DNA of 64,000 bases, from assembly GCA_019637095.1 (NCBI GenBank), contig JAHBWG010000003.1, positions 1-64,000 of the forward strand. Reading direction: 5' to 3'. The notes beneath the pieces are model-generated. The model worked only from the letters and a program-made list of their open reading frames with translations. It made no database searches and was not told the DNA's origin. The position numbers were made by a program, and so were the translations under genes. This document shows, piece after piece, positions 9,102-19,876 of this stretch. How positions within the stretch are numbered: the first letter of the stretch is position 1; each line of letters opens with the position of its first letter. The DNA comes from Sandaracinaceae bacterium. Its GTDB lineage: Bacteria > Myxococcota_A > Polyangia > Polyangiales > Sandaracinaceae.

Positions 9102-10223
9102 TCAGAGGCCGTCGAGGGCGGGCTCGGCTTCGGCCCCAGGATCCCGTTCGGCTTCGGCGTCGGCTTCGGCGTCGGCTTCGGCTTCGGCTTCGGCTTCGGC
9201 TTCGGTGTCGGCTTCGGTGTCGGCTTCGGCTTCGGCTTCGGTGTCGGCTTCGGTGTCGGCTTCGGGGTCGGCTTCGGGGTCGGCTTCGGGGTCGGCTTCG
9301 GGGTCGGCTTCGGTCTCGGCGTCGGCCTCGGGCTCGGCTGCCGCGCGCGGCGAGGGCGCCCAGCCGAAGCCGTCGGAGGGACGCCAGCTCACCATCAGCG
9401 CGCCGGCGAGCGGGAGCGCGCCCTGGTCGAACGAGCGCTCGCCCAGGAGCGCCATCGACGCGGCGAGCTCCACGCCCACCTCGGGGCCGAGCCCCAGGCG
9501 CACGCCCGCGTTGACGGCGAGCCGATCGACGAGGGCCGCGTAGAAGAACCCGCCCTGCAGCTCGACCACGAACGCGAGCCACTCGAACGGGTGCCAGTCG
9601 ACGCCGCCGCCGACGCGGGCGCCCGCGTGGGGCTCCGCCGGGCCGACGCCGACGCCGAGCGAGCCGAGCAGCGTGAGCCACGCGTGCGCCCGGAAGTTCT
9701 CCGTCAAGACGAGCGCGCCGGTGATCCCGACGTCGAGCGCGAGCGGCTGGCTCGACTGATCGAGCCCGCTCGTCGCGGGCAGCACGAGCCGCCCCTTCAA
9801 CGCGAGCACCGCGCCGCCCTCCTCGACGAGCTGCCCGCGCGCGCCGACCGACAGGTACCCGAGGCCGAGGTAGCTCGCGCTCACCGCGCTCAGGAGCGCC
9901 TGGTAGCGCAGGAGCTCCCACGACACGAACGCCTCCACGCGCGGATCGCCGAGGCGCACGCTCGCGTGCCCGCGGCCGTTCACGTGGAGGTTCCCGTACA
10001 GCTCGCTCGCGTGCGCGACGAGCAACAGATCACCGCCGAGCGCGATCTCGTCGCGCGGGCACGCGCGGTGAGGGACCCCGAGGAAGCCGTCGAGCTCGCC
10101 GACCTGCAAGGGGCCGATCGGCCGCGACGGAAGGTCGGACGCGCACGCGCGGCGCCACGCCTGCGCGCTCACCGCGCACGGCAGCGCGAGCACCAGCGCG
10201 AGCGCGACGAGCCCGCGCGTCAC
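9102..10223 (-). CDS. Outer-membrane-like protein with acidic repeat tail
   Basis: A 373-residue exported protein. The GTG start overlaps the upstream PHP-protein stop by four bases and gives a signal peptide ending ...CAVSAQA. The body (about 25-300) alternates short hydrophobic strands with Gly and aromatic residues ([25 protein letters not shown]), compatible with a beta-barrel. The last 70 or so residues are a low-complexity tail built from Glu-Ala followed by Asp, Thr, Pro or Glu-Ala, encoded by a hexanucleotide satellite (about 9136-9335). The family is not recognised. Its coupling to the large lipoprotein upstream suggests they act together at the outer membrane. Confidence 0.7.
9136..9335. 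repeat. Hexanucleotide satellite coding for an EA-rich tail
   Basis: About 200 bases are runs of TCGGCT, TCGGTG and TCGGGG hexamers on the plus strand. They are read on the minus strand as Glu-Ala-Asp-, Glu-Ala-Thr- and Glu-Ala-Pro-type dipeptide repeats at the C-terminus of the gene at 9102-10223. All units are multiples of three, so changes in copy number would lengthen or shorten the tail without a frameshift. Confidence 0.75.
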
Positions 10224-13174
10224 GGCGCCTCCAGGCCGGGCCCGTCGAACCCGCCGCCGTCGCGGTCGAGGAGCAGCGGGTTCGTGAACGCGAACGGGTA
10301 GCCGCCCGGCGTGACGACGAGGAACGGGTAGCCCGCGCTCCCGCGCGCGGGCGCCGGCGGGTGGCCGAGCGGTCCCGTGTCCTGCGAGCGGTCGCACGGC
10401 GCGGGCGCCGCCTCGAGCGGCTCGTCGCGCTCGACGTCACGCCAGTCGACGACGCCGTCGCCGTCGTGATCGCCGGTGTCGGGGATCCCGTCGCAGTCGA
10501 GGTCGCCGTCGAGCGCGAGGGGCGTCCCGGCCTCGACGATGATGAACGCGTCGCGCGTTCCGTCCGGCAACAGCTCGGCGAGCGCGACCTCGCCGTCGAA
10601 GCGCACGACGCCCTCGGTGCCGAACGGGTCGCTCGGGTGCGTCAGCTCCGCTTGCAGCGTACGGGCGACGCGCCCGTTCACGAGGATGCGCACCTCCTCC
10701 ACGGGCACCCACGGCGCGGCGCGCACGCGGATCGACAAGAGCGCGCCCGCGCCCGGCACGAACGGATCGACCGAGGGCCTGCGCGTCGCGCCCGACGCGT
10801 CGGTCGTCGCGATCTCGATCACCGGGCCGTTCGTTCCGATCATGCGGCCGGCGCGCACGTCCGCGTCGAACGCGGCGCCATCGAACGCGGCGAGAGTCTG
10901 CGCGGTCCACACGAGCGTGCGCGGCGTGCCGAGCACGTTGTCGGCGAGGTTGTGCGAGTCGCTGTTGCCCGTCCCCGCGCGCACGATCCCCTGGCGCAGG
11001 AGGTAGAACCAGTACGCGCGGAACGGCGTGAGGTCCTCGTTGGCGGTGCCGTTCATCACCTCCTGGGTGTGGTAGTCGGCGTTGCCGAAGCTCGCGCCGG
11101 GCGGCGTGCGCAGGACGAGGCCGGGGCCGGTTCCGTCGTAGACGCGCGGCAGCGGCACGCGCGCGTCGACGCCGACCGCGCGCGGGAACCCGAGGTCGCG
11201 CCCGAACTGCGCGGGCGACCACGGGTGGTTCAGCTGGATGACCCCGGTCGCGCGCGGCCAGCCCGCCTCGACGAAGCGATCGAAGAGCGCGCCCGGCTCC
11301 ACCAGCTCGTCCCACGGCGCGCCGCGGTAGGGGCCCTCGGGCGCGAACGCGAGGGGCCACACGTTCCAGTGCCCGATGACCTGCGGGATCGTCTCGCCGG
11401 GCGTCAGGTCGAACAGGATGTGGCCCGTCGCCTCGACGCCGACGCGCACGCGCAGGCGGTCGTCGGCGCCGAGCGCCTCGCGCGCGTCGGCGAAGTCCCA
11501 CACGACGTCGTGGTCCGTCGCCGCGATCACGTCGACGCGCGCGGCGAGCCACGCGGCGACCCGATCGTAGTCGGGCACCGTGCTGTCGAAGCTCGCACCG
11601 CCGTGCACGTGGAAGTCCGCGCTGAGCGTGCCCTCGGGCGCGACGTCGAGCGACGCGAGCGCGAGCGACACCGGCGCGCGCTCGCCCGCCGCCACGGTGA
11701 CCGTCGCGCGCGCGAGCGTCGCGAACGGGCCCACCGTCGCGTACACGTCGTAGCGACCGGGCGGCACCGCGACGCTGGCCTCGCCGTTCACGAGCGCGCG
11801 GTCGCACGCGGGCGAGCCGCCGGTGGAGCTCCCGAGCAGCGGCGCGCACTCGAGGAAGCGCCCGAAGTAGCGCGCGCGCACGGCCGCGTCGGTCGCGTCG
11901 TCCGCGGGGTGCACGACGACCTGCGCCCAGTCCGCCGCGCCGTCGACGGTGACCGACAGATCGAGGTGCGCCGCCCCGGTGATCGCGAGCTCACCGACGT
12001 CGAGCTCGCCGGCGGCCGGCGCGCGCGCGCTCGCGAACGCCACCGGGCGCCCGAACGCGTACACCGTCGCGACGTAGTCACGCCCCGCGGGCACCGACAC
12101 GGAGAAGGTCCCACCCGCGCGCGGAGTGATCTGCGTCCACGGCGTGCGCTCCTCGGCGGGCTGCTCGGGGCGCCCCTCCTCGACGAGCACGGTGGCGCGC
12201 ACGTCCTCGCCGAGCGCGGCCTCGCCGGTGACGCGACCCCGCAACGTGACGTGCGATTCTCCGAAGAGCGATCGCCGGATCGCGAGCGCCTGATCGGCGG
12301 CGGGGCCGACGCTGCGCCCGGGCACGACGCCGATGAAGCGCTCGAAGACCTCGTGGTCGCGCGGCTGCACGATCCGCGGCGGCAGGCCGACGGCCGAGAG
12401 CTGCTCGGTGTGCCAGCCCGAGAGCGCGGGGCGGTCGCAGGCCACCTCGAAGTAGGTGGCGGCCGGGCTCGACTGCCCGCCCGCCGCCATGAACGGCGCG
12501 TCCTCCCACGACGCCTCGACGGGCGAGACGAGCCCGGGCTGCGCGAAGCCGCGCCCGCGCCCGGGCGCGAAGGGCAACGCCTCTTTCCCGCTCCAGTACC
12601 ACGCGTCGACGAGGCTGAAGCTCCGCGGCTCGCGGGTGCGGTTGACGATCTCGGTGCGCACGCGCAGCCCCGGCTCGCAGCCGCGCAGCTCGTAGCGCGT
12701 CGCCACCCGCGCCTCCGGGGAGCCGGCGAGCGAGCCGTGCACCTGGACGGCCGCCCACCCGTCGCCCGACTCGAGCGTGACGCGGTGGTAGGCGATCGTG
12801 TCGCCGGGCAAGAGGCCGACCCCCTGGAACAGATGGCTCAGCGAGTCGTCGTCGCCCGACGCGCTCGCGAGGTCGAGGAGGTTGCCTCCCGTCGGCGCGA
12901 CGTAGTGCGGGTGATCGAGCGCGTCGATCACCGCGGTGACGACGCCGTTCTCGAGGATCACGTCGCCGGGTGAGGCGAGCGCGTCGATGCCGCCGGGGAT
13001 CGCGTCGCCGGGCGCGAGCACGCGCACCGTCGGCGCGCGGCCGCCCGCGCACTCGAGCGCGAGCGCCGCGCACGGGCTCACGACGGTGCAGCCCTCGTCG
13101 GCGCGCAGGCACGAGGTGTCCTCGCAGCCCGAGAGGCCGACGAGCGCGAGCGACGCGAGAGAGAGCCAGCGCAC
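10220..13174 (-). CDS. CehA/McbA-type PHP-domain lipoprotein
   Basis: A 984-residue predicted lipoprotein (GTG start, lipobox LVGLSGC). The first half is beta-rich, with carboxypeptidase-regulatory-like segments (about 330-500; GRVTGEAALGEDVRATVLVEEG and PAGRDYVATVYAFG). The second half is a PHP-type metallohydrolase domain with metal-ligand motifs DFHVHGG (about 520), ATDHD (about 550), a long central region containing LNHPW, and GNSDSHN (about 740). These fit the CehA/McbA family, which includes carbaryl and phosphoesterase-type hydrolases. Near the C-terminus is an Asp-rich DLDCDGIPDTGDHDGDG stretch like calcium-binding thrombospondin type-3 repeats. The substrate is unknown. It is coupled by a GTGA overlap to the acidic-tail outer-membrane-like protein. 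Confidence 0.82.
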   Translation of the reverse strand: MRWLSLASLALVGLSGCEDTSCLRADEGCTVVSPCAALALECAGGRAPTVRVLAPGDAIPGGIDALASPGDVILENGVVTAVIDALDHPHYVAPTGGNLLDLASASGDDDSLSHLFQGVGLLPGDTIAYHRVTLESGDGWAAVQVHGSLAGSPEARVATRYELRGCEPGLRVRTEIVNRTREPRSFSLVDAWYWSGKEALPFAPGRGRGFAQPGLVSPVEASWEDAPFMAAGGQSSPAATYFEVACDRPALSGWHTEQLSAVGLPPRIVQPRDHEVFERFIGVVPGRSVGPAADQALAIRRSLFGESHVTLRGRVTGEAALGEDVRATVLVEEGRPEQPAEERTPWTQITPRAGGTFSVSVPAGRDYVATVYAFGRPVAFASARAPAAGELDVGELAITGAAHLDLSVTVDGAADWAQVVVHPADDATDAAVRARYFGRFLECAPLLGSSTGGSPACDRALVNGEASVAVPPGRYDVYATVGPFATLARATVTVAAGERAPVSLALASLDVAPEGTLSADFHVHGGASFDSTVPDYDRVAAWLAARVDVIAATDHDVVWDFADAREALGADDRLRVRVGVEATGHILFDLTPGETIPQVIGHWNVWPLAFAPEGPYRGAPWDELVEPGALFDRFVEAGWPRATGVIQLNHPWSPAQFGRDLGFPRAVGVDARVPLPRVYDGTGPGLVLRTPPGASFGNADYHTQEVMNGTANEDLTPFRAYWFYLLRQGIVRAGTGNSDSHNLADNVLGTPRTLVWTAQTLAAFDGAAFDADVRAGRMIGTNGPVIEIATTDASGATRRPSVDPFVPGAGALLSIRVRAAPWVPVEEVRILVNGRVARTLQAELTHPSDPFGTEGVVRFDGEVALAELLPDGTRDAFIIVEAGTPLALDGDLDCDGIPDTGDHDGDGVVDWRDVERDEPLEAAPAPCDRSQDTGPLGHPPAPARGSAGYPFLVVTPGGYPFAFTNPLLLDRDGGGFDGPGLEAP

Positions 13175-13242: not shown

Positions 13243-15030
13243 TCAGGGTCCCCAGATCGCGTGGTTGTCGCCCGAGATGCAGTTCGGGGGGCAGTACAGT
13301 CCCAGGGTCGTCCAGCGCGCGCCGTCCCAGTGGAGCAGCGTGCGCGCCTGACCGACCGCCCAGACGTCGTCCGCGGCGCGGCCCCAGACCCCGCGGAGCG
13401 CGTTGCTCGTGCCGCTCGGGACCGAAGCCCACGCGCTGCCGTCCCAGTGGAGGATCGTACCGGCGTCGCCGACGACCCACACGTCGTTCGCCGCGGCCCC
13501 CCAGACCGCGTGCAGGTCGCGCGCGGTGAGCGCCGGGACGCCGCTCCACGACGCGCCGCGCCAGCGCAGGATCGTCCCGCTCGCCCCGACCGCCCAGACC
13601 GCGTCCGGCGCCGAGCCCCAGACCCCGTCGAGCTGCGCGCCGACGCCGGTGGACACGGGGCTCCACGCGCTGCCGTTCCATCGCAGCGCGGCCCCGCCGG
13701 TGCCGACCGCCCACACGTTCGTCGGCGACGACGCCCAGAGACCACGAAGACTGCTGACGGACCCGGTGCTCACCGTCGTCCACGCGGCGCCGTCCCAGTG
13801 GTGGCTCTCACCGCCGTCGCCGACCGTCCACACGTCCGTCGCCGAAGTCCCCGTGACCGCCCGCAGGGTCGTGGTCATGCCCGGGATCCAGAGGTTGTGG
13901 CGCCTCATCCCGTCCCAGAACCCCGCCTCCACACCGACCACGTAGACCGCCGACGCGGACGCCCCCCACACGGCGTGGTACGGGCTGCCCGGGAGGAAGC
14001 TCTCGCCTCCCCACCGGTCGGTGATCCAGCGCGAGGTGACCCCCGATCCGCCCGAGGAGACTCCCACGAGCCACGCGCCGTTCCAGCTCGGGATGCAGGT
14101 CGGCGACTCGCCGCTCCACGCGCCGCCCGCTTGGCAGGTGCGGGTGGGCGCGCCGCTCAGCGCAAAGCCGTCATCACAGGAGAACGTCGCGACGGTGCCC
14201 GGCGGTCCGGTCGTGCGATCGACGGAGCCGTTGGCCGGCGCGACGAGCGCCGGTGCACAGTCGGCGGGCGTGCAGCTCGGCGCCGTCCCGCTCCAGGTCC
14301 CGTCGGCGAGGCACGTCCGAGTCGGCGAGCCGCTCAGCACGAGCCCGGGGTCGCACGCGTACGTCGCGACGTCGCCGAACGCGCCGCTGGTCCGATCGAC
14401 CCTCCCGCCGGCTGGCGCCGAGAGCGTCGGGCAGGCGACGCGCATCGCGCAGGTCGGGGGTAGGTAGCCGCTCGCGCACGCGCAGGTGAAGGACGACCCG
14501 TCCTCGGTGCACGAACCGCCGTTCAGGCACGGGTTCGGATCGCACGGCGAGCGCACCTCCTCGCACGTCGGCGCGACGCCGCTCCAGCTGCCGGTGGGAC
14601 CGCACACGCGCTCGGCCGATCCACCGTTGCCGGTCAACACGTAGCCCGCACCGCACGAGTAGGTGGCGACGTCGCCCGGCCGCCCCTCCACGCGGTCGAC
14701 GTCCCCGTGGAGCGGCGCGCTCAGGGGCGGGCAGCCGACGAGGCCGGCGTCGTCCGTCCCGGCATCCGACGGCGTCGCGTCGGGGTCCCCGCCGTCCGGG
14801 ATGGTCGCGTCGATCGCGCCCGCGTCGGTCGCGCCCGCGTCCATCCCCGCGTCGATCCCGGAGTCCATCCCCCCGGCGTCGCGCGGGGGCGCGCCCGTCG
14901 TGCAGAGTCCGTCCACGCAGCTCTGCCCCGGGGGGCAGCGTGACGTGGCGCCGCCGCAGGTGAAGGTCCCCGACGGGATGGTGAACTCACAGCCCAAGAG
15001 CAGCAGGGACACCGCGAGGCTCGCGCGCAT
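13243..15030 (-). CDS. Sushi/EGF/propeller lipoprotein, copy 2
   Basis: A 595-residue predicted surface lipoprotein (lipobox Cys about 14). In order: a Cys-rich head with CPPGQSCVDGLC (32-43); a DAG-rich linker (about 50-97); a sushi/CCP domain (100-156); an EGF-like domain CDPNPCLNGGSC...CACASGYLPPTC (163-194); two more sushi domains (200-253 and 258-312); and about 280 residues of propeller-like repeats of the type GVWGSAPDAVWAVGASGTIL (315-595). Sushi and EGF modules are mainly animal extracellular adhesion domains, and all their cysteines are kept here. The start overlaps the stop of the TPR gene by one base (TGATG). It is paralogous to the gene at 15803-17812, which has one more sushi domain. 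Probably a cell-surface binding protein; ligand unknown. Confidence 0.85.
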   Translation of the reverse strand: MRASLAVSLLLLGCEFTIPSGTFTCGGATSRCPPGQSCVDGLCTTGAPPRDAGGMDSGIDAGMDAGATDAGAIDATIPDGGDPDATPSDAGTDDAGLVGCPPLSAPLHGDVDRVEGRPGDVATYSCGAGYVLTGNGGSAERVCGPTGSWSGVAPTCEEVRSPCDPNPCLNGGSCTEDGSSFTCACASGYLPPTCAMRVACPTLSAPAGGRVDRTSGAFGDVATYACDPGLVLSGSPTRTCLADGTWSGTAPSCTPADCAPALVAPANGSVDRTTGPPGTVATFSCDDGFALSGAPTRTCQAGGAWSGESPTCIPSWNGAWLVGVSSGGSGVTSRWITDRWGGESFLPGSPYHAVWGASASAVYVVGVEAGFWDGMRRHNLWIPGMTTTLRAVTGTSATDVWTVGDGGESHHWDGAAWTTVSTGSVSSLRGLWASSPTNVWAVGTGGAALRWNGSAWSPVSTGVGAQLDGVWGSAPDAVWAVGASGTILRWRGASWSGVPALTARDLHAVWGAAANDVWVVGDAGTILHWDGSAWASVPSGTSNALRGVWGRAADDVWAVGQARTLLHWDGARWTTLGLYCPPNCISGDNHAIWGP

Positions 15031-15791
15031 CAGAACCTCCCCGAGACGTGGATCGAGCCCAGCCCCAGCGCGACCGTCGCCTCGCCCCCCGACGCGTCCA
15101 CGACGGCCCAGACGACCCCCGCGGCCGCGGCGACCAGCCCGACGGGCAAGAACACCGCGCCGCTCACGAGCAGCGCGGGGCCACGCTCGTAGGACGCTTG
15201 GGTCGCGTCGGTCCACACGGGGTCGGCGCCCGGGCGCTCGACGGCCTCACGGTCGGCGAGCCCGACCCCGAGCAGGACACCGCCGGCCACCGCGACCGCC
15301 GCGCCGACCCCGACGAGGATCCACGGCGCAGGGCCTGCTCCGTCGGACCCGCGCTCGGACCCGCGCTCGGATCCGCGCGCTCCTACGGGCGACGCGATCT
15401 CGACGCGCGCCGGCGTCACCTCTGCGGCGGACGGCGACGCCGACGGAGCCTCGAGCGCGCGCCGCAGCACGTCGATGCGCCGCTCCACCCGCGCGCGGAT
15501 CGGGGTATCCGGGACGCGCTCCAGAAACTGCTCGTAGCTCCGCAGCGCGAGCTCGTCCTGACGGTCGCGCTCGGCCGCCGAGCCGATGTTGTTCAAGAGC
15601 TCGGCGCGCCCGCTCAGCTCGTAGCTGCGCTGGAAGTACCTCACCGCCTCCGCGTATCGACCCCCCGCATAGGCGGCGGCGCCCGCTTCGAAGAGCGCAC
15701 GAGCCTCCCCCTCCAGCGTACTGTCTTGAGCTACCGCCGAGCCCGCGACGCCCAGCACCACCACCACGAAGAGCACACCGGAGAGCCTCAC
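15030..15791 (-). CDS. Small TPR membrane protein, copy 2
   Basis: A 253-residue exported protein. The GTG start has a perfect AGGAGG ribosome-binding site that overlaps the stop codon of the preceding gene. A signal peptide (…AGSAVAQDS) is followed by TPR-like helices (about 25-110; GEARALFEAGAAAYAGGRYAEA and FQRSYELSG), a Ser/Gly/Glu-rich linker with GSERGSERGSD, and two or three hydrophobic helices in the last 110 residues (WILVGVGAAVAVAGGVLLGVGL and LLVSGAVFLPVGLVAAAAGVVW). Strongly similar to the copy at 17809-18603. It overlaps the downstream lipoprotein gene by one base, so the pair forms one translational unit. The role may be assembly or display of that lipoprotein. Confidence 0.82.
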   Translation of the reverse strand: MRLSGVLFVVVVLGVAGSAVAQDSTLEGEARALFEAGAAAYAGGRYAEAVRYFQRSYELSGRAELLNNIGSAAERDRQDELALRSYEQFLERVPDTPIRARVERRIDVLRRALEAPSASPSAAEVTPARVEIASPVGARGSERGSERGSDGAGPAPWILVGVGAAVAVAGGVLLGVGLADREAVERPGADPVWTDATQASYERGPALLVSGAVFLPVGLVAAAAGVVWAVVDASGGEATVALGLGSIHVSGRF

Positions 15792-15798
15792 GTTCGTT

Positions 15799-15804
15799 CC
15801 TCCT
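15799..15804 (-). promoter_or_regulatory. Ribosome-binding site overlapping upstream stop codon
   Basis: On the minus strand AGGAGG lies seven bases before the GTG at 15791 and shares bases with the TAG stop (15803-15805) of the preceding lipoprotein gene. It decides the GTG start of the TPR gene and shows that module 1 and module 2 are translated from one message. Confidence 0.8.
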
Positions 15805-17812
15805 ACCGAGGGCCCCACACCGCGTTCAGGGTCGGAGCGGCGCCCAACGGGAGCAAGCTCGCGTCTGCGTGGGTGATCGACGTGCCGTCCCAGTGCACGA
15901 GCGAGCACTGACCGACGATCCACACGTCGTTCGGTGAGGTGCCCCAGACGCCACGGAACCAATCGCAGAGACTGAGGCTGGTCACGGGGTGCGGGATCGA
16001 CGTCCAGGTGGTCCCGTCCCACCGAAGGATGACGCCCCGGGGGCCCGACACGACACCGACCGCCCAGACGTCGGTCGCCGACCGCGTCCAGACCGCCTCG
16101 AGCTGCACCGAGAAAGGCAGGGGCATGGCCGTCCAGCTCGCACCGTCCCAGCGGTAGGCAGCGGAGCCGTTGCCCACGGCCACGACGTGGGTCGACGACG
16201 AGCCGCCCAGCCCCGAGCCGCTCGAGATGGCGAAGGGGACCGGCGAGGCGGGGGTCCAGGCGGTGCCTTGCCAGCGGAAGAGACCATCATAGCCGATGAT
16301 CCATGCATCGCTCGACGAGGCGGCCCACACGTCTTGCAGCCACCCCGTCGCGCCGCCGACCGCCGACCACGCGACGCCGTCCCAGCGTCGGATCGTACCG
16401 CCGAAGCCCACCGCCCATGCGTCACGATCGGACGATCCTCCGACGGACATCAGCCGCTCCGTGGTACCGCTCGGGACCGCGCCCCAGCGCATGCCGTCCC
16501 AGTGGACGATGGTCCCGTCGAAGCCCACCGCCCACGCGTCCGTCGGCGAGGTCCCCCATACGCCGAGCAGCCCCGCGTCCGTGCCGCTCGGAACCCGGAT
16601 CCACCGCACGCCGTTGTAGCGGATGATGGTCCCGCCCCCGCCGACGGCCCAGATCCCGCCGATGCAGCGTGGGACCGCGCCGGACCAGGTCCCGTCCGCC
16701 TGGCAGGTGCGCGTCGAGGTGGTCCGAACGTCGCAAGCCCCGGTCGCAGGGACGCAGGAGTGGGCCCCCTCGACGAGGTACCCCCGATCGCAGGTGTACG
16801 TCGCCACGTCGCCGGTGCTCCCCGTGGTGCGATCGACCGCCCCGTTGGCCGGCGCGCTCAGCGTCCCCGCGCACGGAACGCCGGCGCAGGTCGGCGCGGT
16901 GCCCGACCATGATCCGTCGTCACCGCAGGTGCGCGTCGAGTCACCGACCAGCGCGTAACCCACATCGCACGAATAGGTCGCGACGTCGCCGGCCATCCCC
17001 GTGGTGCGATCGACGGATCCGTGGGCAGGGGCGACCAGAATGGGAGCGCACCCCCCGCGAACGCAGGTGGGCGCGACGCCGCTCCACGTCCCGTCCGCTT
17101 GGCAGGTGCGCATCGTCGCGCTGCTCGGCAGGTAGCCAGAGTCGCAAGCGTAGGTCGCGACGTCACCGAAGGAACCGGTCGTCCGATCCACGCTGCCGTT
17201 CTCGGGAGTGACGAGCGTCGGACACGTCACCCGCGCAGCGCACGTGGGACCCTGGAACCCCATCGCACACGTGCACGAGAAGCTGTCGTCGTTGCGCGTA
17301 CAGAGACCGCCGTTGAGGCACGGGCTCGGCTCGCACGGAGACACCGCGACCTCGCACGTCGGCGTCAGGCCGGACCATGAACCGTCGCTCTGACAGGTCC
17401 GGGTGTCGGACCCACCGTTCCCGGTGAGGACGTAGCCCGTATCGCAGCGGTACGTCGCGACGTCCCCGGCGCTCCCCGCCGCGCCATCGACGGACCCGTT
17501 GGGGGGCGGATCGAGGGTGGGGCACGTCGCCGGCGCTCCGCCAGCGTCCCCGCCCGCGTCGCTCTCCGCGTCCGGGGGGAACGCGGCATCCTCGGCGAGG
17601 GCGGAGTCCGGGCGGTCGGCGTCCGCGGAGGCGTCGCGCGCCCCCGCGTCCGGGCCGCCCTCACCCGAGATGCACAGGCCGTCCACGCAGCGCTGCCCAG
17701 GAGGGCAGCTCGGCGAGTCGTCGGAGCACACGAACCGACCGCTCGGGGCGGTGACCGTGCAGCCCGCCGCGAGCAGCGCACACAGACAGGCGCTCCAGCG
17801 CCAGCGGGTCAC
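15803..17812 (-). CDS. Sushi/EGF/propeller lipoprotein, copy 1
   Basis: A 669-residue predicted surface lipoprotein (lipobox LLAAGC, Cys about 18). In order: CPPGQRCVDGLC head (36-47); DAG/Ala-rich linker (about 54-95); sushi 1 (97-153); EGF-like CEPSPCLNGGLC...CTCAMGFQGPTC (160-191); sushi 2-4 (197-250, 255-309, 314-383; the last carries an insert with two extra cysteines); and about 280 residues of repeats such as GVWGTSPTDAWAVGFDGTIVHW (386-669), most likely a beta-propeller. The GTG start overlaps the stop of the TPR gene by four bases, with GGGGAG about nine bases upstream. Same architecture as the gene at 13243-15030, so the pair arose by tandem duplication with gain or loss of one sushi domain. 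Confidence 0.86.
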   Translation of the reverse strand: MTRWRWSACLCALLAAGCTVTAPSGRFVCSDDSPSCPPGQRCVDGLCISGEGGPDAGARDASADADRPDSALAEDAAFPPDAESDAGGDAGGAPATCPTLDPPPNGSVDGAAGSAGDVATYRCDTGYVLTGNGGSDTRTCQSDGSWSGLTPTCEVAVSPCEPSPCLNGGLCTRNDDSFSCTCAMGFQGPTCAARVTCPTLVTPENGSVDRTTGSFGDVATYACDSGYLPSSATMRTCQADGTWSGVAPTCVRGGCAPILVAPAHGSVDRTTGMAGDVATYSCDVGYALVGDSTRTCGDDGSWSGTAPTCAGVPCAGTLSAPANGAVDRTTGSTGDVATYTCDRGYLVEGAHSCVPATGACDVRTTSTRTCQADGTWSGAVPRCIGGIWAVGGGGTIIRYNGVRWIRVPSGTDAGLLGVWGTSPTDAWAVGFDGTIVHWDGMRWGAVPSGTTERLMSVGGSSDRDAWAVGFGGTIRRWDGVAWSAVGGATGWLQDVWAASSSDAWIIGYDGLFRWQGTAWTPASPVPFAISSGSGLGGSSSTHVVAVGNGSAAYRWDGASWTAMPLPFSVQLEAVWTRSATDVWAVGVVSGPRGVILRWDGTTWTSIPHPVTSLSLCDWFRGVWGTSPNDVWIVGQCSLVHWDGTSITHADASLLPLGAAPTLNAVWGPR

Positions 17813-18603
17813 TGGAAGCTCCCCGCGAGCGCGACCGTGGTGGGCCCCACGCGCACCGACAGGCTCGACGATCCGTCGCTCTGGGCGACCAATCCCCACA
17901 CCACTCCGACCGTGGCGAGGACGACGCCGAGCGGGAGCATGACCACGCCGCTCGTGAGCAGCGCGGGCGCCCGCTCGTAGGCCTGAGCCGTCTCGTCGGT
18001 CCACGCCGCGCCCTCGGGCGGATCCTCCACGGCTGCCCGGTCGACCAGCCCGACGCCGAGGACGATCCCCCCGGCGACCGCCACGGCCGCGCCGGCCGCG
18101 ACGAGGATCCAGGGAGCCACGCCGCCATCCGCGCGCTCCTCCGGGACACGCGTCCGCGCCGCGGCGCGGGTCGGCCCGGCGACGGGCGCGTCCTCCGCGG
18201 AGGCGGGGGCGGCGATCGGCTCGGCCTCGCGCGCGAGCCGCGCTCGCAGATCGGCGATCCGCGTCTCGGCCCGCGCTCGCGCCGGGGCGTTCGCTTCGGT
18301 CGGCTCGACACGCTCGAGGAAGGACTCGTATGCGCTCAGCGCCAGCTGGTCCTCCCGCGCGCGCTCGGCCGCGGTCCCGATGTTGTTCAGGAGCTCCGGG
18401 CGCCCGCTCAGCTCGTAGCTGCGCTGGAAGTATCGGAGCGCCTCCTCGAAGCGCCCGCCTTCGTAGGCCGCGAGCCCCGCCTCGAAGAGGGCGCGCGCCT
18501 CACCCTCGTACGTGGAGTCGGGCTGCGCGGCGGCGTGCGTACGAAGGAGGAGGAGCGCGAGGCAGAGGGCGCTGGACACCGAGCTGGGCAGGACATGGGC
18601 CAT
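17809..18603 (-). CDS. Small TPR membrane protein, copy 1
   Basis: A 264-residue exported protein, first gene of the four-gene module. A signal peptide ends near THAAAQPDS. The TPR-like region (about 28-120) contains EGEARALFEAGLAAYEGG and RYFQRSYELSGRPELLNNIG, nearly identical to copy 2. After an Ala/Glu/Pro-rich linker come hydrophobic helices (WILVAAGAAVAVAGGIVLGV and LLTSGVVMLPLGVVLATVGVVW). It ends four bases inside the sushi/EGF lipoprotein gene. The N-terminal TPR region also resembles that of the kinase-linked TPR/PEGA protein, hinting at a common scaffold used with different envelope partners. Confidence 0.82.
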   Translation of the reverse strand: MAHVLPSSVSSALCLALLLLRTHAAAQPDSTYEGEARALFEAGLAAYEGGRFEEALRYFQRSYELSGRPELLNNIGTAAERAREDQLALSAYESFLERVEPTEANAPARARAETRIADLRARLAREAEPIAAPASAEDAPVAGPTRAAARTRVPEERADGGVAPWILVAAGAAVAVAGGIVLGVGLVDRAAVEDPPEGAAWTDETAQAYERAPALLTSGVVMLPLGVVLATVGVVWGLVAQSDGSSSLSVRVGPTTVALAGSFQ

Positions 18604-18634: not shown

Positions 18635-19876
18635 TCAGTCGGGGAAGTCGACGACCGAGAGGTCGAGCGGGAGCTGGCCGACGCGGTCGTCGGGGGACGC
18701 CGCGGCGCGGTCGAACCACTGGCCCGACTGATCGGGCGCGGTCCGCCATCGCTCGCGGTCGAGTCGCCCGGCGACCCGGAGCTCGGTGAAGGTGTGCGGG
18801 ATCCCGTCCGCTCCGAGCGCCGAGGGCTCCGCCATGAGGTGGAGGTGCAGATGGGGCGCCGAGGTGTTCCCGGTGTTGCCGAGCCGCCCGATCTCCTGCC
18901 CGGCGACGACGCGGTCGCCGACGGCGACCCGGACGCTGCCGCGCCTCAAGTGCGCGTAGAACGCGTGGACTCCGCCGCCGAGGTCGAGGATGACGTGGTT
19001 GCCGTCGACGGTCTGGAGCGTGATCGTCCCGGGCTCCGGGAGCGAGCCCGGCGTGATGTCGTCGAGCGCGTCGAGGGCCTGGACGACGACGCCGTCGGCG
19101 ACGGCGTAGAGCGGCTCGTCGAAGCCGGCCCAGCTCTCGAGCGCGCTCGGGTCGCCATCGAAGAACCGCCCCTCGTCGTCCAGGCGCTGCCAGTCGATCG
19201 CGAAGCGCTGCGACACGACCATCCGCCCACGCACCGGCTGGATGGCGTCGCGGTGGACCGCGCCGGGATCACAGCAGCCGTTGATGGCGACCCAGCCGCG
19301 ACCGCGTACCGGAGGAGCGATCCTCGGCGTGGTCCGCCGCGAGATGTCCCACGGCGCGGCGAGGTAGCGGACGGGAACGGGCTCGCGCGAGCCGGGGTTC
19401 GCGGCGGCCCGCGCCTCGACGCGGTGGAGGATCCGCGCGGGGACGTCGTCACGCGCGTCGAACGCGAGCTCGACGAACACCACGCGCCCCGCGTCGGGAG
19501 CGATGCGCCGATCCTCGACCGGGCGCAGCGTCAACCCGCGCATCGCGCCGAGGAGCGCGTCCCCTTCGAGCCGCGACACGCGCCGCTCGCGAGCGTCGTA
19601 GTCGAGCACCTCGAGCGCCGTGAGCTCGGCCTCGACCGGCCGCACGTTGAGCAGCCGCAGCTCGTAGACGACGTGCCAGCGCTCGTCGGTCCCGAGGACG
19701 GGCGCGGTCTCCGTCCCGACGATCTCCACGACGAGCGCGGAGTAGTCCTCCTCGAACCCGCGCAGGTCCGTCGGCGGCGGCGGGCACTCCGGCGGAGGGA
19801 GGAGCGGCGCAGGGGCGCTCTCACAGCCCACGACGAGAGCGACCAGCGCGCACGCGCTCGACCAAGACGCCGGCAT
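18635..19876 (-). CDS. M23-type (LytM fold) lipoprotein
   Basis: A 413-residue predicted lipoprotein (ALVVGC). About 200 residues of beta-rich N-terminal domain precede a LytM/M23 fold (about 215-370). The second zinc motif is intact (HLHLHLM, about 345), as are strand features VDGNHVILDLGGGVHAFYAHL and GRLGNTGNTSAPH. Where typical LytM proteins have HxxGxD, this one reads SQRFAIDW: the Asp is kept but the His is not at its expected place, so the metal site may be altered or supplied differently. Possible roles are peptidoglycan hydrolysis or, if inactive, activation of amidases. Divergent from the GH3 gene; the 203-base gap holds no other gene. Confidence 0.8.
   Translation of the reverse strand: MPASWSSACALVALVVGCESAPAPLLPPPECPPPPTDLRGFEEDYSALVVEIVGTETAPVLGTDERWHVVYELRLLNVRPVEAELTALEVLDYDARERRVSRLEGDALLGAMRGLTLRPVEDRRIAPDAGRVVFVELAFDARDDVPARILHRVEARAAANPGSREPVPVRYLAAPWDISRRTTPRIAPPVRGRGWVAINGCCDPGAVHRDAIQPVRGRMVVSQRFAIDWQRLDDEGRFFDGDPSALESWAGFDEPLYAVADGVVVQALDALDDITPGSLPEPGTITLQTVDGNHVILDLGGGVHAFYAHLRRGSVRVAVGDRVVAGQEIGRLGNTGNTSAPHLHLHLMAEPSALGADGIPHTFTELRVAGRLDRERWRTAPDQSGQWFDRAAASPDDRVGQLPLDLSVVDFPD

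Follow-up and report, generated by a model that had tools for sequence, protein, structure and literature searches.

A widespread gene module pairing TPR proteins with lipoproteins in Myxococcota, found in two copies in a Sandaracinaceae bacterium

The window analyzed here, a stretch of 64,000 nucleotides (74% GC) from the 9.25-Mb genome of a Sandaracinaceae bacterium, contains four adjacent genes, for which we favor the following reading and give it an even chance: the locus comprises two copies of a widespread, unnamed two-gene module, in which a TPR protein is the dedicated partner of a lipoprotein and handles it through the lipoprotein's head. The existence of the module, its many copies, the overlap of its genes and the variability of its lipoprotein bodies are established at the level of sequence. 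The second gene, translationally coupled to the first, encodes a lipoprotein in which a short head at the lipobox cysteine is joined by a flexible D/A/G linker to a body that can be exchanged. In the proposed mechanism, the product of the first gene would be exported by means of its signal peptide and anchored in the membrane by two C-terminal helices, with a periplasmic location. The TPR protein would bind or escort its own lipoprotein through contact with the head and would thereby decide where or when the lipoprotein enters the envelope, at the outer membrane or the surface; the sushi/EGF/propeller body in the window would be a binding or adhesion module. We hypothesize that the two proteins form a display or secretion pair, surface exposure being putative. 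The pair family is of more interest than the sushi/EGF locus itself; the sushi/EGF/propeller proteins are one among many bodies on a common chassis.

The genes, for which the preliminary description had named no strand, are all encoded on the minus strand and run TPR1, LIPO1, TPR2, LIPO2 (Table 1). The members of each pair overlap, by 4 nt at the TPR1/LIPO1 junction (GTGA) and by 1 nt at the TPR2/LIPO2 junction (TGATG), in agreement with the preliminary description of the locus, which had recognized two adjacent, coupled TPR-then-lipoprotein units. The LIPO1 stop and the TPR2 start are 11 nt apart; the ribosome-binding site of the second copy was correctly placed over the stop codon of the first: the TAGGAGG sequence ahead of TPR2, with its AGGAGG site, shares bases with the TAG stop of LIPO1 (15805-15803). 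Given the neighboring lipoprotein genes on both sides, the transcription unit may be longer than the four genes. Upstream, a gene for an M23-peptidase lipoprotein (window 18635-19876, minus strand) ends 31 nt from TPR1 and may share its operon; downstream, a gene for a lipoprotein of 984 aa (10220-13174, minus strand) starts about 70 nt from LIPO2. A scan for sigma-70 promoters and terminators gave no usable result, with 0 promoters and with terminator-like matches that fall within genes. LIPO1 (15803-17812) was overlooked by a codon-usage gene caller, and the codon scores of the sushi/propeller genes are atypical.

Table 1. Positions in the window of the genes and protein domains of the two TPR–lipoprotein units
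Feature	Position	Strand	Basis or remark
TPR1 gene	17809..18603	-	reading frame; Pfam; structure model
LIPO1 gene	15803..17812	-	669 aa lipoprotein; GTG start overlapping TPR1 stop
LIPO1 head, lipid Cys18 to Cys47, CTVTAPSGRFVC..CPPGQRCVDGLC	17672..17761	-	part tracking TPR clade
LIPO1 sushi 1	17354..17524	-	Pfam, cysteine layout
LIPO1 EGF-like domain	17240..17335	-	Pfam, cysteine layout
LIPO1 sushi 2	17063..17224	-	Pfam, cysteine layout
LIPO1 sushi 3	16886..17050	-	Pfam, cysteine layout
LIPO1 sushi 4, two cysteines in extra loop	16664..16873	-	Pfam, cysteine layout
LIPO1 predicted seven-bladed propeller, residues 387-669	15806..16654	-	blade model, structure model
TPR2 gene	15030..15791	-	GTG start; SD TAGGAGG overlaps LIPO1 stop
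LIPO2 gene	13243..15030	-	595 aa lipoprotein; ATG overlapping TPR2 stop
LIPO2 head, CEFTIPSGTFTC..CPPGQSCVDGLC	14902..14991	-	head alignment, cysteine layout
LIPO2 sushi 1	14563..14733	-	Pfam, cysteine layout
LIPO2 EGF-like domain	14449..14544	-	Pfam, cysteine layout
LIPO2 sushi 2	14272..14433	-	Pfam, cysteine layout
LIPO2 sushi 3	14095..14259	-	Pfam, cysteine layout
LIPO2 propeller, ~7 blades, first two degenerate	13246..14079	-	blade model

The TPR proteins match the Pfam family TPR_2 (30.3 and 33 bits for TPR1 and TPR2, against a cut-off of 27). TPR1 begins with a signal peptide of the AxA-Q type, and its structure model (mean pLDDT 83.4) comprises a TPR domain at residues 32-127, a linker, two long hydrophobic helices (163-193 and 203-241) and a C-terminal beta-hairpin (246-263). 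TPR1 has 39 matches in its own genome and 30-70 per genome in eight relatives. The family is predicted to be exported and is apparently unnamed; a literature search, with subscription journals mostly outside its coverage, found no account of TPR–lipoprotein pairs or of myxobacterial sushi proteins. Behind the predicted hairpin, the last residue is Phe in 63 of 87 family members, and 52 end in GxF, an arrangement like the outer-membrane beta-signal.

The domain plan proposed for the lipoproteins was upheld. Both carry a lipobox (criterion: signal peptide with [LVI][AST][GA]C), LAAGC in LIPO1 and the looser LLLGC in LIPO2, where the -2 residue is L, and are predicted to be lipidated; in both, the lipobox cysteine is followed by the CPPGQ head and a linker rich in D/A/G. 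The cysteine layout then runs from the head through one sushi domain and the EGF domain to the rest of the sushi domains. With sushi domains defined by four cysteines and a Trp pattern over ~56 residues together with the Pfam cut-off, and EGF domains by six cysteines and the Pfam cut-off, four sushi domains were found in LIPO1 (PF00084, E 1.1e-41) and three in LIPO2 (E 4.9e-34), all listed matches being above the curated cut-off, with one EGF domain in each (PF00008, 27.2 and 28.0 bits against 21.5). A blade model identified the propeller-like repeats as 7 blades in LIPO1, five clear and two weak blades in LIPO2 and 14 blades in each of five paralogues; the counts of 7 and 14 therefore suggest one or two seven-bladed rings. 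In the LIPO1 structure model (mean pLDDT 77.5) the sushi part matches SCR proteins, and the propeller is predicted to form a seven-bladed ring, for which YCF48 is the closest solved fold (TM 0.63, normalized by target). The repeat sequence differs from that of YCF48, there is no photosystem here, and a PDB sequence search gave no YCF48 match. In both proteins the last propeller strand (VWGPR, IWGP) forms the C-terminus, and the MYXO-CTERM anchor, i.e. a C-terminal Cys motif, TM helix and basic end, is absent from them.

As anticipated in the preliminary description, TPR membrane proteins followed by a lipoprotein occur beyond this locus. We counted as paired any TPR gene for which an ORF with a lipobox and a hydrophobic stretch starts -30 to +60 nt from the TPR stop. 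By this criterion, a lipobox ORF adjoins 26 of 41 TPR genes in the own genome, against 40 of 288 control genes (14%), and 34 of 68 in other genomes, against 22 of 425 controls (~5%); in a repeat sample, 31 of 59 TPR genes were paired. About half of the TPR genes are thus without an adjacent lipobox gene. Overlaps of 1 or 4 nt are common among the pairs, and in two operons a single TPR gene is accompanied by two head lipoproteins (G000:C137, heads 3974 and 2274; G005:C105, heads 101286 and 99997), the tandem second lipoprotein keeping the same head.

Thirteen partner lipoproteins whose heads have the form CxxxxPxGxFxC...CPxGxxCxxGxC were aligned, and by sequence comparison CPPGQ-type heads go with one TPR clade while the bodies vary. 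On a quick tree of the TPR proteins, the HEAD label takes 4 changes, against a mean of 12.2 for shuffled labels (0/500 shuffles as low), although the pattern had first been spotted in the data also used for this tree; the prediction in new pairs and a head search across the phylum are the independent checks. For new pairs, HEAD can be predicted from the nearest known TPR (table [[21,1],[4,5]], p 0.004), and in a leave-one-out test of 92 pairs ([[66,2],[6,18]], p 4e-12) 18 of 20 HEAD pairs have a HEAD neighbor. In the phylum search, the 12 strong matches (E up to ~1e-11) that the training set did not contain all lie directly behind a TPR gene; they span several genera and reach into other families and classes, but are not fully independent because five come from one genus. 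Weaker head matches mostly have no TPR neighbor, which is present at 3 of 13.

A more general relation between head and TPR protein was examined by comparing, over all pairs, how similar the lipoproteins are in their first 15 mature residues with how similar the TPR proteins are. The correlation is present in the discovery set (rho 0.229; permuted 0.071 +- 0.044, 0/2000) and in the pooled sets (0/1000), but is missing in the repeat set alone (570/1000); for this reason we claim the link solely for the CPPGQ-type head. In the discovery set, neither the body nor the signal peptide, the latter a weak control, correlates with TPR similarity. These results bear on an alternative explanation, in which the genes are co-expressed envelope genes whose products do not interact physically, and head and TPR protein stay together through proximity. 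Linkage alone could have this effect, because no part of the lipoprotein gene is closer to the TPR gene than the one that encodes the head, and linkage predicts that just this part stays with the TPR gene; the pairing of only about half of the TPR genes and the failure of the all-pairs correlation in the repeat set also fit. The occurrence of every strong new head match behind a TPR gene, across several genera and into other families and classes, argues against it, as do the retention of the same head by tandem second lipoproteins and the lack of correlation for body and signal peptide, and we regard explanation by proximity as possible but somewhat unlikely.

The bodies found on head-bearing partners include, besides the sushi/EGF/propeller of the window, Laminin_G_3, an SBBP propeller and a Cys-rich Stig1-like domain, and several partners have no Pfam body domain. 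Conversely, the same sushi/EGF/propeller body occurs under a second head, CSLLFTGTEHQ at G000:C30 in the own genome and CALVLDGSRHQ at G043:C421 in another family. Each of these two lipoproteins lies behind a TPR gene of another clade than that of the window, and the C-termini of the two TPR proteins are reciprocal best matches. A third head, CSLLLxxxTFR, is found on the same body at C20 and C154, with no adjacent TPR gene. The preliminary description had proposed that sushi/EGF proteins are invariably paired with the TPR protein. This must be abandoned: among the nine sushi-propeller proteins found in the own genome and G043, a TPR gene lies directly upstream of four (the two of the window, G000:C30 and G043:C421) and is missing there for five (two at C20, two at C154 and one at G043:C72), and in the rest of the phylum sushi proteins are not immediately preceded by a TPR gene. 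It is the TPR family and the lipoprotein head that are paired, not TPR and sushi/EGF. EGF/sushi lipoproteins with 14 propeller blades each form two more tandem pairs, at L062 (4368-9120) and L063 (6493-11127), where no TPR gene is adjacent; giant multi-sushi EGF proteins of 1700-1780 aa occur at L274, L275 and L277, from MAGs titled 'uncultured Myxococcales', in loci where no TPR gene was found.

The sushi and EGF domains resemble those of animal proteins such as beta-2-glycoprotein I, CD55 and selectins in fold and sequence signatures, but here they belong to a bacterial lipoprotein with a propeller and without complement context. Acquisition from animals, for interaction with a host, would agree with the best Foldseek matches of the sushi part (human beta-2-glycoprotein I, CD46 and CD55) and with the sporadic distribution of sushi domains, present in 2 of 6 genomes, and of the sushi/EGF unit, which 9 of 379 genomes of the phylum carry. 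We nevertheless consider it highly improbable, as several families of the phylum, represented mostly by environmental MAGs, have sushi proteins, no host is indicated, and the domain fold by itself yields such matches. All named records in which LIPO1 has relatives are MAGs of Myxococcota.

The TPR–lipoprotein pair might instead be a sensor, in which the body detects a ligand at the outer membrane, whereupon the TPR protein relays the signal inward, to the inner membrane and in some cases to a neighboring Ser/Thr kinase. A kinase motif is encoded upstream on the same strand at 17 of 95 TPR genes from several genomes, against 23 of 476 other genes (p 5e-5), and at G043:C421 kinase, TPR protein and sushi lipoprotein are consecutive. 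However, the kinase link is commoner where the TPR gene has no lipoprotein partner (11/40) than where it has one (6/55), and no kinase gene directly flanks the pairs of the window, so that a sensor appears unlikely.

The reading in which the TPR protein handles its lipoprotein through the head has parallels in known systems. Slam (DUF560) proteins also have a TPR domain, and a lipobox gene is adjacent to 185 of 353 of their genes (52%; PMC5449769), similar to the share of about half seen here. Unlike them, the TPR protein has two helices and a beta-hairpin, and both the Pfam search and the model gave no DUF560 barrel; hence it is not a Slam member. In the LES of Bacteroidota, K-(D/E)2 near the lipid cysteine (PMC5080379) is comparable to the candidate address label proposed here, which is likewise a short stretch near that cysteine, but the present head is Cys-rich and has a TPR gene next door. 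For M. xanthus, the consulted passages of one study (PMC3222651) have residues near the lipid cysteine determine whether a lipoprotein goes to the inner membrane, the outer membrane or the matrix, again a signal in this position, and they mention no TPR partner. BamD-type TPR proteins, to which there are weak profile and fold matches, are also exported; the present protein differs in not being lipidated and in its C-terminal helices and hairpin. The parallels to Slam and to near-cysteine sorting suggest lipoprotein sorting or display. A module whose TPR proteins number in the tens per genome, and whose lipoproteins have matching heads but interchangeable bodies, would be a candidate route, distinct from Slam and LES, for sorting or exporting lipoproteins in Myxococcota. 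The fullest form of this idea, a phylum-wide, multi-copy system in which each TPR protein reads its own head and passes the lipoprotein to the outer-membrane machinery, possibly docking by its Phe-ended hairpin, is speculative and seems to us quite unlikely.

The two units of the window had been described as a tandem duplication. TPR1 and TPR2 are 57% identical, and each is equally near a TPR protein from another genus of the family, which rules out a recent event. The sushi/EGF units of LIPO1 and LIPO2, on the other hand, are sisters (support 91), and a tandem duplication is therefore plausible, but old.
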